Source: Aspidapion aeneum
Lineage: Eukaryota > Arthropoda > Insecta > Coleoptera > Brentidae
Reading direction: 5' to 3'
NCBI GenBank assembly: GCA_963576565.1
Contig: CAUYVT010000068.1
Location: 367,501 to 431,500 of the forward strand
DNA: 64,000 bases
Shown here: one piece after another, positions 2,363 through 58,759 of the stretch
Layout of the letters: the number at the start of each line of letters is the position of its first letter
Position numbering within the stretch: position 1 is the first letter of the stretch
Program-made: the position numbers and the translations under genes
The notes under the pieces: generated by a model
Databases searched by the model: none
What the model was told of the DNA's origin: nothing
Seen by the model: only the letters and a program-made list of their open reading frames with translations

Positions 2363-2399
2363 AATCAGCAGTCTTGCCTACTAAAGCCGACGACTGATT
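2363..2399 (+). other. 3' UTR hairpin, element 1
   Basis: Starts 6 nt after the stop. AATCAG pairs with CTGATT, then GTC with GAC, then an asymmetric TT/C internal loop and a GC/GC pair closing an 8-nt loop. It has the same architecture as the hairpins of elements 2, 3, 9, 11, 12, 15 and 17 although the stem sequence is different. Confidence 0.75.
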
Positions 2400-2473
2400 A
2401 GGAATAACCTGTAAACAACAGAGCTAGTAAAAAAAAAAAAAAAAAAAAAAAAAAAAAAAAAAAAAAAAAAAAA

Positions 2474-2578
2474 TAATAATAATAATAATAATAATAATAA
2501 TAATAATAATAATAATAATAATAATAATAATAATAATAATAATAATAATAATAATAATAATAATAATAATAATAATAA
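2474..2578. repeat. (TAA)n tract 2
   Basis: Pure TAA repeat of about 105 bp separating the A-tail of element 1 from the truncated 5' end of element 2. Confidence 0.97.
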
Positions 2579-5397
2579 ATGAAGAAAATAATCAGCGTAA
2601 CAAATAAAATCTTGAATGAAAAAATGCAAAGTGTACAATGCTTGGAAGAGCTACATGCGTATATCTATGTTGCGGCATTGACTGTGGTGGAACAAAACCA
2701 ACAACAGATAAGGAAGGAGCCCATGATATTCGAAACCATCCCACCCTGGGAAAAAAGAATCAAACAACGCATTGAAGATCTAAGACGAAATATTGGACAG
2801 CTACAGGAAGCTTCTAACCCAAATGCGAAACGAAAAACAAAGGAAAAAGGGCAAAAACTAATGAAAAGGTTTAAAGACGACAAAAACCAAACGCTGCCTG
2901 AAATTCTTGATCTACTAAAGCAGCAGCTCTCGGCCAAAGCAAAGCGCTTACGCAGGCTGAAAGAAAGCAACCAGCGTAAGAAAGAAAACTTCCAATTTGC
3001 TAACAACAAGTTATCGAAAACGAAACACCAGAAGAAACAGCTCTTAATCAATACTGGAGAGATATTTGGTCAAAACCAAAGACACATAAAGCAAACACAA
3101 ACTGGTTAATACAGGAAAAGGAAAGAATGGACAATAAAGGAAGAATGAATGAGAGCGAAATAACAAAAACAGATGTTGAGAAAGCTATACGAAAAAGCAA
3201 AAACTGGAAGGCACCGGGACCGAAAAAAATTCATAATTTTTGGCTGAAAGAATTTAGAAGCGTGCACCAAAAAATATCAGAAATTTTCAACGAGATAATA
3301 GAGCATAATCTTGAACTACCACCATTTATGACTAAAGGAATAACATATTTGCTGCCAAAAACATCACCCACCAGCAAGAACCCCAGTAAGTACAGGCCAA
3401 TAACATGCCTACCAACCTTGTATAAGCTGTTTACGGGAATAATTGCAGACAAAGTTTATCAACATCTAGAAAACAACGACATTTTAGCTCTGGAACAGAA
3501 GGGATGTCGAAGGGCAACAATAGGCTGCAAGGACCAACTGGTAATTGACTCAATTGTTGCCGGAAATGCCAAGAAGCATAAGAAGAATCTCTTTACAGCA
3601 TACGTTGATTATCAGAAGGCTTTCGACAGCGTACCACATTCCTGGCTCTTGGAAGTTCTTGAAATATACAAAGTAGACTATAAAATACAGAATCTACTTA
3701 AAAATATGATGAAAAATTGGAACACTAGACTTACCATTAAATCGGGAAATTCAAGCAAATCCTCAGGAGATATCCAAATAAAATGCGGTATCTTCCAAGG
3801 CGACGCACTCAGCCCTCTATGGTTTTGTATGGCCCTAAATCCTCTCTCAACTGCCCTAAAAGGACAAAACAGAGGTGTGAAATTGGAAAATGACATAATA
3901 CTTACCCATCTACTCTATATGGACGACCTCAAAGTATATGCAGTATCCGACGAAGACCTGAAACGGAATATTAAATTAATAAAAGATTTTAGTTCGGATA
4001 TTGGTATGATATTTGGATTGGATAAATGTCGCACAAACGTCATGGAGAAAGGGAAATGGAAAAGACACCAGGGAATAGAGCTGGGAGAGGACGAAGGACG
4101 CGTAGAAGGAATGACACAGGACGAACTGTACAAGTATTTGGGATATCAACAAGCAAGGGGAATCGACCAGAAAGAAGCAAAGCGGACACTAACGGCCAAC
4201 TTTAAAGGAAGACTGAACAATGTTATGAAGACCAAGCTGAATGCTAAAAACCTGGTAAAAGCGGTCAACACATATGCAATACCGGTGTTGGCATACAGTT
4301 ATGGAATCATAAACTGGACACAAACAGAGCTAGACCAGCTCAACAGAGAGATCCGCACAACAGCGACGAAACAAAGAAAACATCACCCCCGAAGCTCTAT
4401 CGAAAGGTTTCACCTACCACGCGATGCTGGTGGACGAGGATTCCTCAACATATCAGAACAACACCATAAACAAATAAAAAGCCTTCGTACATATTTCCAT
4501 AAAATATCGGAACAAAACACACTGTATGCATCCATAGTAAATATAGATAACAAAATTTCTCCGCTTAACCTAAAGACAAGAAACTTGCAAGAAAGAGAGC
4601 CGACCAATTACATTGAAAACTGGATGCGTAAAGAGCTACATGGTCGATACCCTGCGTTACTTAGGCAAAACCACATAGACCAAATAGCTTCGACAGACTG
4701 GTTGCGGAAAGGGTATTTGTTTCCAGAAACAGAGGGCTTTGTTTGTGCAATCCAAGACCAAGTAATAGCGACCCGAAACTACCAAAGACACATAATGAGG
4801 ATTAGAATAGAAACAGATAAATGTCGTATGTGTGGGGACGAAACAGAGTCAATTGACCACGTTATAGGAGGGTGCAAAACCCTAGCGCCCAACGAGTACA
4901 CCAAACGACACGACAATGTGGGAAAAGTAGTATACCAGGAACTGCTCAAAAAAATTGACACTGAAACAGCACAGAAACCATACTATAACTTTAAACCAGA
5001 GTCCGTTATAGACAGTGAGCATTACAAGCTCTACTGGAATAGAGATATCATCACGGACGTTCACATACAAAGTAATAGACCAGATATTGTATTCGTAGAT
5101 AAGCAAGCTAAACAAACGTACCTTATTGATATAGCCGTACCATTATCAGCAAACCTGCAACGAAAACATCAAGAAAAAATTAACAAATACATACCATTGT
5201 CTAACGAAATAAAAGAGATGTGGGATCAAGACAACGTAACCATAATACCAATTGTCCTCGGAGCTACAGGTGAAGTTCCGCATGCCACACTAAAGAGCCT
5301 GAAAAATCTAAATATCAAAGACAACATTATCTGCACTATGCAAAAAATAGTTCTAATAGAAACAACGGGAATAGTACGTAAAGTAATGAACCTCTAA
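2579..5397 (+). pseudogene. Frameshifted, 5'-truncated RT / endonuclease polyprotein (element 2)
   Basis: Coding sequence lies in two frames. The first (2579-3109) gives the helical basic linker found before the RT in relatives, with PPWEKRI and LLKQQLSAKAKRLRRLKESNQR motifs. Near 3004-3020 the FYR-x-L segment of the relatives is missing and the frame changes. The second frame is open from 3004, with its first ATG at 3127, and runs to the TAA stop at 5397. It carries NWKAPGPKKIHNFW (Lys where relatives have Asp), the finger motif YRPITCLPTLYK, motif A YVDYQKAFDSVP, motif B GIFQGDALSPLWF, YMDD (nt 3916-3927), knuckle CRMC...H...C and endonuclease RPDIVF...YLIDIAVP. The RT and nuclease parts are otherwise complete. 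The deletion makes the copy non-functional as read. Confidence 0.92.
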
Positions 5398-58200: not shown

Positions 58201-58698
58201 AAAAGGCACGACAACGTAGGAAAAGTCATATACCAGGAATTTCTAAAAAAAATAAAACCTGACGCACCTCACACCCCGTACTATAAGCTAAAACCCGACT
58301 CTGTGAATGAAAATGAGAACTACAAGCTATATTGGAACAGAGAAATAATCACGGACGTACATATACCACATAACAAACCAGATATGGTGCTTGTGAACAA
58401 ACAAACAAAACAAGCGTACATCATAGACATGGCAATCCCGCTGCCCACAAACACTCAACGAAAATACCAAGAAAAAATAAACAAATACTTGCCATTAGCA
58501 AATGAGATCAAAGACATGTGGAACCAAGATCGAGTCACCATTGTGCCAATAATCTTCGGAGCTACTGGGGAAGTACCGTCAGCAACACTCGATGGCCTCA
58601 AAACCCTGGAAATAAAAGAAAATCTAGTTAGTCAAATGCAAAAAATCACTCTGATAGAAACTACTGGAATCGTACGTAAAGTTCTGAACTTACCTTGA
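55264..58698 (+). pseudogene. Polyprotein with one homopolymer frameshift (element 17)
   Basis: Frame 0 from 55264 to 55898 gives the Myb-like domain (TKWTTAMNEFLYGRYLVLS and VQNILDQRRVLL) without a native start. An A7 run at 55867-55873 is one base too long relative to the downstream frame. The rest (frame 1, from 55873; first ATG 55927) is uninterrupted to the TGA at 58698: 923 residues from ATG 55927 with NWKAPGIDKIQNFW, YRPITCLPTLYK, YIDYQKAFDSVP, GIFQGDALSPLWF, YMDD (residues 430-433), FGLDKC, knuckle CRMC...H...C and nuclease KPDMVLVN...YIIDMAIP. Apart from the one-base slip and truncation it looks intact, and it is the best guide to the original frame of elements 12 and 16. Confidence 0.93.
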
Positions 58699-58725
58699 AA
58701 ATACTTACCTATACCGTAGACCCCA

Positions 58726-58759
58726 CTTCGAATCCTTGTACGCAAGTACCGGAGAGAAG
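58726..58759 (+). other. 3' UTR hairpin, element 17
   Basis: CTTC/GAAG and TCC/GGA outer pairs, TT/C asymmetric loop, GTAC/GTAC stem and GCAA (GNRA) tetraloop. Confidence 0.78.

Follow-up and report, generated by a model that had tools for sequence, protein, structure and literature searches.

Twin UU/C hairpins near the 3' end and the open reading frame start of R2/R4-like retrotransposons in TAA repeats of a beetle genome

A 64,000-nt stretch of the genome of the beetle Aspidapion aeneum (contig CAUYVT010000068.1, positions 367,501 to 431,500 of the forward strand; hereafter the window) is filled with stacked non-long terminal repeat (non-LTR) retrotransposons of an R2/R4(Dong)-like kind that lie within (TAA)n arrays. 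A first-pass annotation, made from the letters of this stretch, reported that a hairpin recurs just after the stop codons of these elements, and this observation is confirmed. The hairpin, here called P1, has an asymmetric internal loop in which UU or ACU faces a single C. Near most of the 3' ends it is followed by a second hairpin, P2, and in several elements a twin of P1 lies close to the 5' end of the open reading frame (ORF); neither P2 nor the 5' twin was part of the annotation. Both hairpins, their positions, the UU/C loop, and P2 are established at the level of sequence and predicted folding. The same kind of hairpin at both ends suggests that a single shape gives the enzyme of the element its hold on either end of the RNA. 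We consider it probable that these R2/R4(Dong)-type elements of TAA repeats carry, at each end of their RNA, a hairpin whose shape is recognized by their own reverse transcriptase (RT).

Positions given below are those of the window, and features are on its + strand unless stated otherwise. Elements are designated e01 to e19, and G denotes a GC-richer family with several near-identical copies (14398-18092, 21845-25527, 38671-42361, 59102-59697, and 59776-61763), whose RT is ~29 to 38% identical to those of the other elements over the longer matches.

A HAIRPIN WITH A UU/C INTERNAL LOOP AT THE 3' END

P1 is present at all 12 sites listed in the first-pass annotation. At each, an outer stem is followed by TT or ACT on the 5' side of an internal loop, a single C on its 3' side, and an inner stem. 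The sites at 38281 and 54711 belong to copies of one element, which leaves 11 independent hairpins, nine with TT and two with ACT. Hairpins were scored by stem strength under a TT|ACT x C descriptor that was written from the annotation's own examples, and each of the 11 stands out from 500 dinucleotide shuffles of its own 3' untranslated region (UTR) at p 0.002 to 0.008. Summed over 13 3' UTRs, the score is 278, compared with 22.5 ± 14.8 for the shuffles (maximum 87.5 of 500). When only the sizes of the loops are imposed, the TT/C or ACT/C form is the top match in 9 of 11 cases; in e01 and e11 it is recovered only by a descriptor that requires those letters. The inner stem closes on the internal loop with a G-C pair in 11 of 11 hairpins, a feature required by neither of these window searches.

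Descriptor scans place the individual hairpins as follows. P1 of e01 has the core GTC[TT]GC..GC[C]GAC (2371..2391; internal-loop letters in square brackets), with an outer stem that is longer in the predicted fold, and that of e11 (38289..38312) has an outer stem that reaches 38281 in the predicted fold. GNRA loops cap the hairpins of e02 (core 5438..5458, GTAA), e03 (9674..9704, GAAA), e04 (13269..13298, GTAA, ACT x C type), e09 (31960..31986, GAAA), and e16 (58733..58753, GCAA). The remaining examples are those of e06 (21279..21318), e08 (27089..27124, ACT x C type), e10 (33732..33766, with a 12-nt loop), e14 (50457..50479), and e15, the copy of e11 (54719..54742). The ACT type is confined to e04 and e08, a fully supported clade in an RT tree that took in the window elements only; the TT type is found in all remaining elements with P1, including e06, which branches outside the main group of that tree.

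Two parts of the original description had to be given up. A GNRA tetraloop was put forward as a frequent cap, and such caps occur in 5 of 11 window hairpins and in 3 of 14 from the additional clusters introduced below, or 8 of 25 in all, too few for the tetraloop to define the hairpin. The limit to the 3' UTR also fails, because the 5' arm of P1 in e06 overlaps the stop codon at 21285 and because strong copies are found near ORF 5' ends at 6261, 28581, 43192, and 47113.

P1 RECURS IN 3' UTRS BEYOND THE WINDOW

Additional DNA was drawn from 30 loci recovered by a genome search and from 60 kb of C78 that adjoins the window. Together with the window, these sequences yield 31 3' UTR clusters, of which 14 come from the window and 17 are new. 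The cluster to which the e03 3' UTR belongs is made up of 15 members, among them one whose locus overlaps the window. The new clusters come from the same host genome and were not used in writing the descriptors. P1 is found in 14 of the 17, where shuffled sequences give a mean of 1.04 (maximum 4 in 300 rounds). For 13 of the 14 new hairpins, the window has no element with the same stem.

Pair types in the 25 clusters with P1 number four or five at each of outer pairs 2 and 3 and inner pairs 2 to 4, and three at the fifth inner pair. These tables were built from rows fitted to the structure and hence are not a test of covariation. The outer closing pair is C-G in 19 of 25. The descriptor used for the unseen clusters and for scans of the whole window imposes the G-C inner closing pair, and support for the invariance of that pair is the 11 of 11 seen in the window. 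The earlier proposal that structure and not sequence is kept is not borne out in that form: the loop letters and the G-C pair above them are kept as well.

A SECOND HAIRPIN AND A FIXED ORDER OF PARTS

Near the 3' end of each of the 11 elements with P1 lies P2, which can be written C[stem]N-G. A C-G pair at its base is separated by a single bulged base (T, A, or C) from a short stem that opens with C-G, and more or less A-rich sequence comes afterwards. A P2 descriptor matches 13 of 14 window 3' ends, compared with 4.6 in shuffles (maximum 9). Taken singly, 12 of the 13 matches have p 0.004 to 0.084; the thirteenth, in the G family, is a chance match, and e13 is the one window 3' end of the 14 at which no P2 match was found. 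The descriptor was written after examples had been seen, and the unseen clusters test the order of P1 and P2 beyond those examples. In these clusters P1 together with P2 is found in 11 of 17, where shuffles give a mean of 0.24 (maximum 2).

The matches to the P2 descriptor are at 2408..2423 in e01 (C[CTGT..ACAG]A-G, with the stem in brackets), 5472..5489 in e02, 9714..9728 in e03, 13308..13322 in e04, 21324..21340 in e06, 27130..27142 in e08 (p 0.084 alone), 31998..32014 in e09 (p 0.061 alone), 33778..33790 in e10, 38329..38343 in e11, 50498..50513 in e14, 54759..54773 in e15, the copy of e11, and 58766..58780 in e16. A further match, at 33378..33395, lies in e09b, whose 3' UTR is without P1. 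In the G family, a P2-like helix C[TACTTGC..GCAAGTA]A-G was fitted by eye (18040..18083); the match of the P2 scan in this family (e05g) is a different one.

The order P1, linker, P2, A-rich tract is found at 11 of 14 distinct window 3' ends and in 11 of the 17 unseen clusters. A scan of the 64-kb window for P1 followed by P2 gives 12 matches on the + strand, all at the 3' ends, and three on the - strand, at a single spot in three copies of the G element; shuffled windows give 0.15 matches each (maximum 1 in 20 shuffles). Linkers between P1 and P2 are often A-rich. The end of P1 is not fixed, so the positions of adenosines 2 and 3 of J1/2, a trait of R2-type cores, carry no firm numbers here.

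Two kinds of 3' end occur side by side within one clade, one with a run of 25 to 45 A residues before the TAA array and one in which P2 passes almost straight into AAATAAT. Runs of A are seen in some families at 2429-2473, 18092-18123, 21341-21365, 42361-42394, and 46661-46696.

A TWIN OF P1 NEAR THE START OF THE ORF

When the window was scanned with the P1 descriptor, four strong matches fell away from the 3' ends, at 6261, 28581, 43192, and 47113, and these lie close to the ORF starts of e03, e09, e13, and e14. In each of the seven window elements that extend far enough, the 120 nt upstream of the first conserved N-terminal motif, which surrounds a tryptophan (W) codon, were tested, and six contain a UU/C hairpin; the anchors used for the window sit one to three codons before this W. 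For the six twins, p is 0.001 to 0.002 when dinucleotide shuffles serve as the null and 0.001 to 0.004 when synonymous recoding does, and their summed score is 154.5, compared with 0.5 to 0.6 expected (maximum 27). In the window and in the unseen sequences, the C of the internal loop lies 26 to 41 nt upstream of the anchor. The strict twin is found in 5 of 8 unseen 5' ends (2 of 3 plus 3 of 5), after two of the seven anchors of the second set, L041:2632 (E 0.92) and L044:2082 (E 0.39), both without a hairpin, had been dropped as spurious hits of the N-terminal probes. The 15 segments of the 5' end are at most 71% alike.

The six twins, written with the apical loop in parentheses where it is given, are ATG[TT]GCTGTGGAG(CAAC)CTCCACAGC[C]CAT in e03 (6261..6291; p 0.001 against both null models), AACG[TT]GCGGCAG(ACAAA)CTGCCGC[C]CGTT in e09 (28581..28610), GCG[TT]GTTG..CAAC[C]CGC in e13 (43192..43219), GGTG[TT]GCTGAAGA(AGC)TCTTCAGC[C]CACT in e14 (47113..47142), TG[TT]GCTGAGGC(TGC)GCCTCAGC[C]CA in e16 (55361..55386), and CG[TT]GTGGA(AGCTCAAGC)TCCAC[C]CG in e19 (62217..62242). 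In e13 the hairpin, in the frame VVEQAAQP, has p 0.001 against synonymous recoding. This element has TAG where the first N-terminal motif has its conserved W codon (43241-43252); its 5' hairpin is intact, and its RT match breaks again near 46320-46350. In e16, a database protein, P0011, is nearly identical to the element over 55330-55430.

In a scan of twelve window elements for hairpins with a score of at least 17, e03, e09, e14, and e16 have one at each end, e11, e02, e04, and e06 have the 3' hairpin only, and e13 and e19 have the 5' hairpin only. Element e01 has none (its P1 scores 14), and G has one, at a third of its length. No other strong copy is found elsewhere in the 11 non-G window elements scanned.

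The twin of e03 spans residues ~44 to 54 of the protein, within a region (1-63) without a confident predicted fold (predicted local distance difference test score, pLDDT, under 50). As judged by eye, a V-A ... Q-P pattern at the twin is kept by several relatives amid an otherwise variable stretch.

AN R2-LIKE PROTEIN AT TAA REPEATS

A TAA array lies at most 260 nt from the C-terminal end of the RT in 88 of 90 cases, counted over the window and 36 loci, some of them overlapping; the two RT ends without an array were excluded before the 3' UTRs were clustered. The flanks of the window elements are TAA arrays, as expected for insertions of the Dong type, and the target is these repeats and not the 28S ribosomal DNA (rDNA) into which members of the R2 clade insert. 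The elements have other traits of the R2 clade, namely a single ORF, an RT whose predicted fold is R2-like, and a C-terminal nuclease domain.

Element e03 has an open RT ORF of 1172 amino acids (6131..9649), and structure prediction gives its product a fold that matches R2 proteins. The solved structures closest to the e03 model are R2 proteins, mostly captured during target-primed reverse transcription. Residue 331 of the model aligns with residue 305 of the Bombyx mori R2 protein (R2Bm), where R2Bm starts in 8gh6, and residues 313-349 are modeled as a long basic helix that includes the region matched to the start of R2Bm. Within this helix R333 is conserved in 54 of 58 rows. On the strength of the model, R333 would correspond, at constant offset, to Arg307 of R2Bm, a residue match that we infer. 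Arg307 has been placed at P1 of the R2Bm RNA (PMC10499050).

HOW THE TWO HAIRPINS MAY BE USED

In the explanation we favor, the 3' RNA would fold into P1, linker, P2, and an A-rich tract that runs into UAA repeats, and these repeats would pair with the nicked target and prime complementary DNA (cDNA). The shape to be recognized in P1 would be an outer stem, UU or (A)CU facing one C, and an inner stem that opens with G-C. A hairpin of the same type would be maintained at the 5' end, within coding sequence for a disordered stretch of protein. One RNA-binding surface, by analogy the NTE-1 helix of R2, may take the 3' hairpin first, for first-strand nicking and priming. Synthesis of cDNA would then strip the 3' copy from the protein, and the 5' copy could occupy the vacated site or an equivalent one, or else bind to a second subunit. 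With the 5' copy on the protein, the enzyme would be set up for second-strand cleavage. Protein binding, priming, and the 5'/3' hand-over are steps that we infer largely by analogy with R2, and twin hairpins at both ends are what competition for one site, as in R2, would call for.

A bolder extension, to which we give somewhat less than an even chance, is that the same protein-binding hairpin stands at both RNA ends and that the V-A ... Q-P residues, in a disordered stretch of protein, are kept for the sake of the RNA and not of the protein. A single surface would use the 3' copy to begin cDNA synthesis and, at a later stage, the 5' copy to set the timing of second-strand cleavage, and the hairpins would serve as end marks by which the template is checked to be whole.

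The first-pass annotation had proposed a 3' RNA element that is read by the RT. This remains the best reading and gains support from the R2-like protein structures, the order of parts, and the TAA arrays at 88 of 90 RT ends; its emphasis on GNRA loops, its limitation to the 3' UTR, and its reliance on structure only are not supported.

A number of observations weigh against the favored explanation. Three of the 14 window 3' ends break the strict rule: e13 has no match to the strict P1 descriptor and carries a variant in which T replaces the 3' C (ACT[TT]GTGA..TCAC[T]GGT, 46608..46630; p 0.035 with a relaxed post hoc descriptor), e09b (stop at 33318) has no P1, and the G family has a P1 match at chance level only (p 0.21) and instead a 3' hairpin with a TAA x A asymmetric loop (17982..18024), which is not of the TT/C type. 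The new clusters share the host genome, some are related to window families, and 6 of the 17 are without strict P1 plus P2. The P1 stem of L021 is that of e14, and P1 of L002 is marginal (p 0.037 in the strict search and 0.31 in the relaxed one). Strict P1 is missing in three new clusters, L033:2404, L028:421, and L006:1202. The last is a relative of the ACT clade with ATT x C (p 0.0025 under a relaxed descriptor), and the other two have p above 0.05 under the relaxed descriptor also; L033:2404 is nearest the G family (46%) and, like G, is without a strict TT/C hairpin. Relaxed-loop descriptors were written after examples had been seen. In a structure-free comparison of sister sequences for compensatory changes, three double changes kept a pair and three broke one, and single changes kept six pairs and broke 15. 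This comparison covers nine pairs of 60 to 77% identity with shaky alignments. When the P1 pieces were aligned with MAFFT, several were put in the wrong place, and five unseen P1 hairpins likewise gave a faulty alignment.

Further points of the same kind concern the 5' end. The strict twin is missing in e11 and in three of eight unseen 5' ends (L007, L042, and L044). These four have a CU variant under a relaxed post hoc descriptor (p 0.0025 to 0.02), which in e11 reads TG[CT]TTGGA..TCCAA[C]CA (34925..34953; p 0.02) and in L042 can be drawn in more than one register. Copies of the ACT clade are truncated at the 5' end, so the 5' counts do not cover that clade. The twins also differ in proportion, the inner stem being long and the outer stem short at the 5' end and often the reverse at the 3' end, and in the outer closing pair, which is G-C in all six window twins but mostly C-G in the 3' hairpins. 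Outside the window, matches with a score of at least 17 that are untied to an element end occur at L007:373, L039:1123 (where there is no RT at the site), L042:837, and L046:3088. Finally, the 5' RNA feature of R2 is seemingly not conserved in the R2 elements of other species, according to PMC12503042.

In a rival reading, only the 3' hairpin serves RT recognition. The 5' hairpin would then assist translation of the ORF, through choice of the start site or slowing of the ribosome, and would resemble P1 by convergence on a stable and simple shape. Structured RNA at the start of the R2 ORF has been suggested to matter for translation initiation (PMC12203849), and the unlike stem proportions and closing pairs fit that reading as well. 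Against it, an uncommon internal loop, UU x C topped by G-C, recurs at the two ends in lineages whose proteins are 40 to 51% identical to that of e03, and no strong copy lies elsewhere in the 11 non-G elements scanned; we regard this reading as unlikely, if deserving of attention. It is more doubtful still that both hairpins are bound by a host factor for export, stability, localization, or silencing and not by the protein of the element. Every sequence tested comes from one host genome, as such a factor would allow, but a site directly upstream of priming and an R2-like order of parts are what RT recognition predicts, and no known RNA family in Rfam matches the window at the gathering score.

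A role of the 3' hairpin in forming or stabilizing the 3' end of the transcript, as a terminator-like or processing signal through which the RT reads, would suit its position close to the RNA end, at the stop codon or past it, with A-rich tails behind. Yet a terminator does not call for features as specific as the conserved asymmetric loop and a P2 with a fixed bulge, and a 5' copy would have no role in 3' end formation, which makes this reading quite improbable. The pattern might finally reflect chance and the choice of examples, given that descriptors were written after examples had been viewed, certainly so for P2 and the relaxed loops. We assign this a negligible probability in light of the 17 unseen clusters, with 14 P1 hairpins against 1.04 expected and 11 P1 plus P2 arrangements against 0.24, and of the four strong 5' matches that emerged from a window scan with a 3' descriptor.

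RELATION TO KNOWN RETROTRANSPOSON RNAS

As a close counterpart of the 3' end, the 3' UTR core of R2 (R2Bm and R2Tg) has the same order of P1, linker J1/2, P2, and an A-rich tract leading into the RT active site; in both systems there is little sequence in common between lineages, and the RT has the same predicted fold. The differences are substantial. Here P1 is a compact hairpin formed locally, with UU or ACU facing C in its internal loop, whereas the two sides of the R2Bm P1 and P2 are separated by 81 and 98 nt and the P1 of R2Tg is a pseudoknot. P2 has a one-base bulge at a fixed place, and the target is TAA repeats and not 28S rDNA. The 3' part is a new variant of the R2-type core.

Like the 5' RNA of R2 (the 5' protein-binding motif, 5' PBM), the twin found with the strict descriptor is predicted to be a folded RNA at the 5' end of the ORF. 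The R2Bm 5' RNA binds the same protein as the 3' UTR and is displaced by that UTR through competition (PMC12203849), and whether the R2Bm protein acts in first- or second-strand cleavage is assigned by separate 5' and 3' RNA motifs (PMC6895275). The form is different, being a single hairpin of the 3' P1 type here and a pseudoknot in R2 (PMC12203849). A motif common to both RNA ends was not described in the R2 literature searched, an open library of partial texts outside which most subscription journals lie.

Dong of B. mori, a member of the R4 clade, likewise resides within TAA repeats (PMC3774820), and hairpins like these at the 3' or 5' end are not described in the passages on Dong and R4 that were found. 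The likeness to Dong/R4 drawn here is one of target site.

UnaL2 and ZfL2 are L2-type elements with another loop and fold. As stringent long interspersed nuclear elements (LINEs), they resemble the elements described here in that a 3' stem-loop is recognized by the element's own protein, and no element of the UnaL2 type is among the Rfam matches to the window at the gathering score or with E up to 1, which is weak evidence. The iron-responsive element is likewise a hairpin in which an asymmetric internal loop faces a lone C and the inner stem has about five pairs. Its six-base apical loop is not present in the hairpins described here, and the element is not among the Rfam matches in the window. 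Below the gathering score Rfam gave only DUF805b (E 2), on the strand opposite the e03 3' UTR, and CrcZ (E 0.15 and 0.51), which falls in TAA arrays; all were taken as chance.

The divergence of 3' UTR sequences has made the bases that matter most for R2 recognition hard to find (PMC10499050), and reviews treat it as open or doubtful whether the R2 5' RNA is in general use or peculiar to the silk moth. With 31 3' UTR clusters in one genome, the majority sharing this compact hairpin, and a similar one at the 5' end, R2-type recognition can be tested directly, the unit to swap, break, or repair being a hairpin of 20 to 40 nt. A P1 plus P2 tag of 48 to 62 nt would be a simple handle for RT-based DNA writing at TAA repeats.

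OTHER FEATURES OF THE WINDOW

No Rfam match to an HDV-like (hepatitis delta virus) ribozyme is found in the window at the gathering score or with E up to 1, and the models may miss this branch. Several elements open, as judged by eye, with CCCGTG..CGGG followed by a hairpin resembling GTCGTA-AAGGCGACTAAAAGG (5945-6030, 27878-27960, 34619-34710, and 46860-46940); these starts have no Rfam ribozyme match. DNA of relatives was not found in viral contigs, in a collection of genome contigs, or in phages.

The most over-represented 7-mer of the window is ACTTACC, with 31 occurrences on the element strand compared with 5.8 expected and none of its reverse complement; examples are at 2286, 3729, 7556, 31946, 33746 (within the apical loop of P1 in e10), 38280, 46616, 58688, and 58703. 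The surrounding consensus, ATACTTACCTG, matches the 5' end of U1 small nuclear RNA (snRNA) and would be a perfect splice donor on the antisense strand. No copy lies in the coding part of the G family. In coding parts of the window it is found 23 times, in all three frames, compared with 4.7 after synonymous shuffling (maximum 10 of 300), and in the 17 unseen clusters, over up to 990 coding nt before the end, it occurs 18 times and its reverse complement 0 times.

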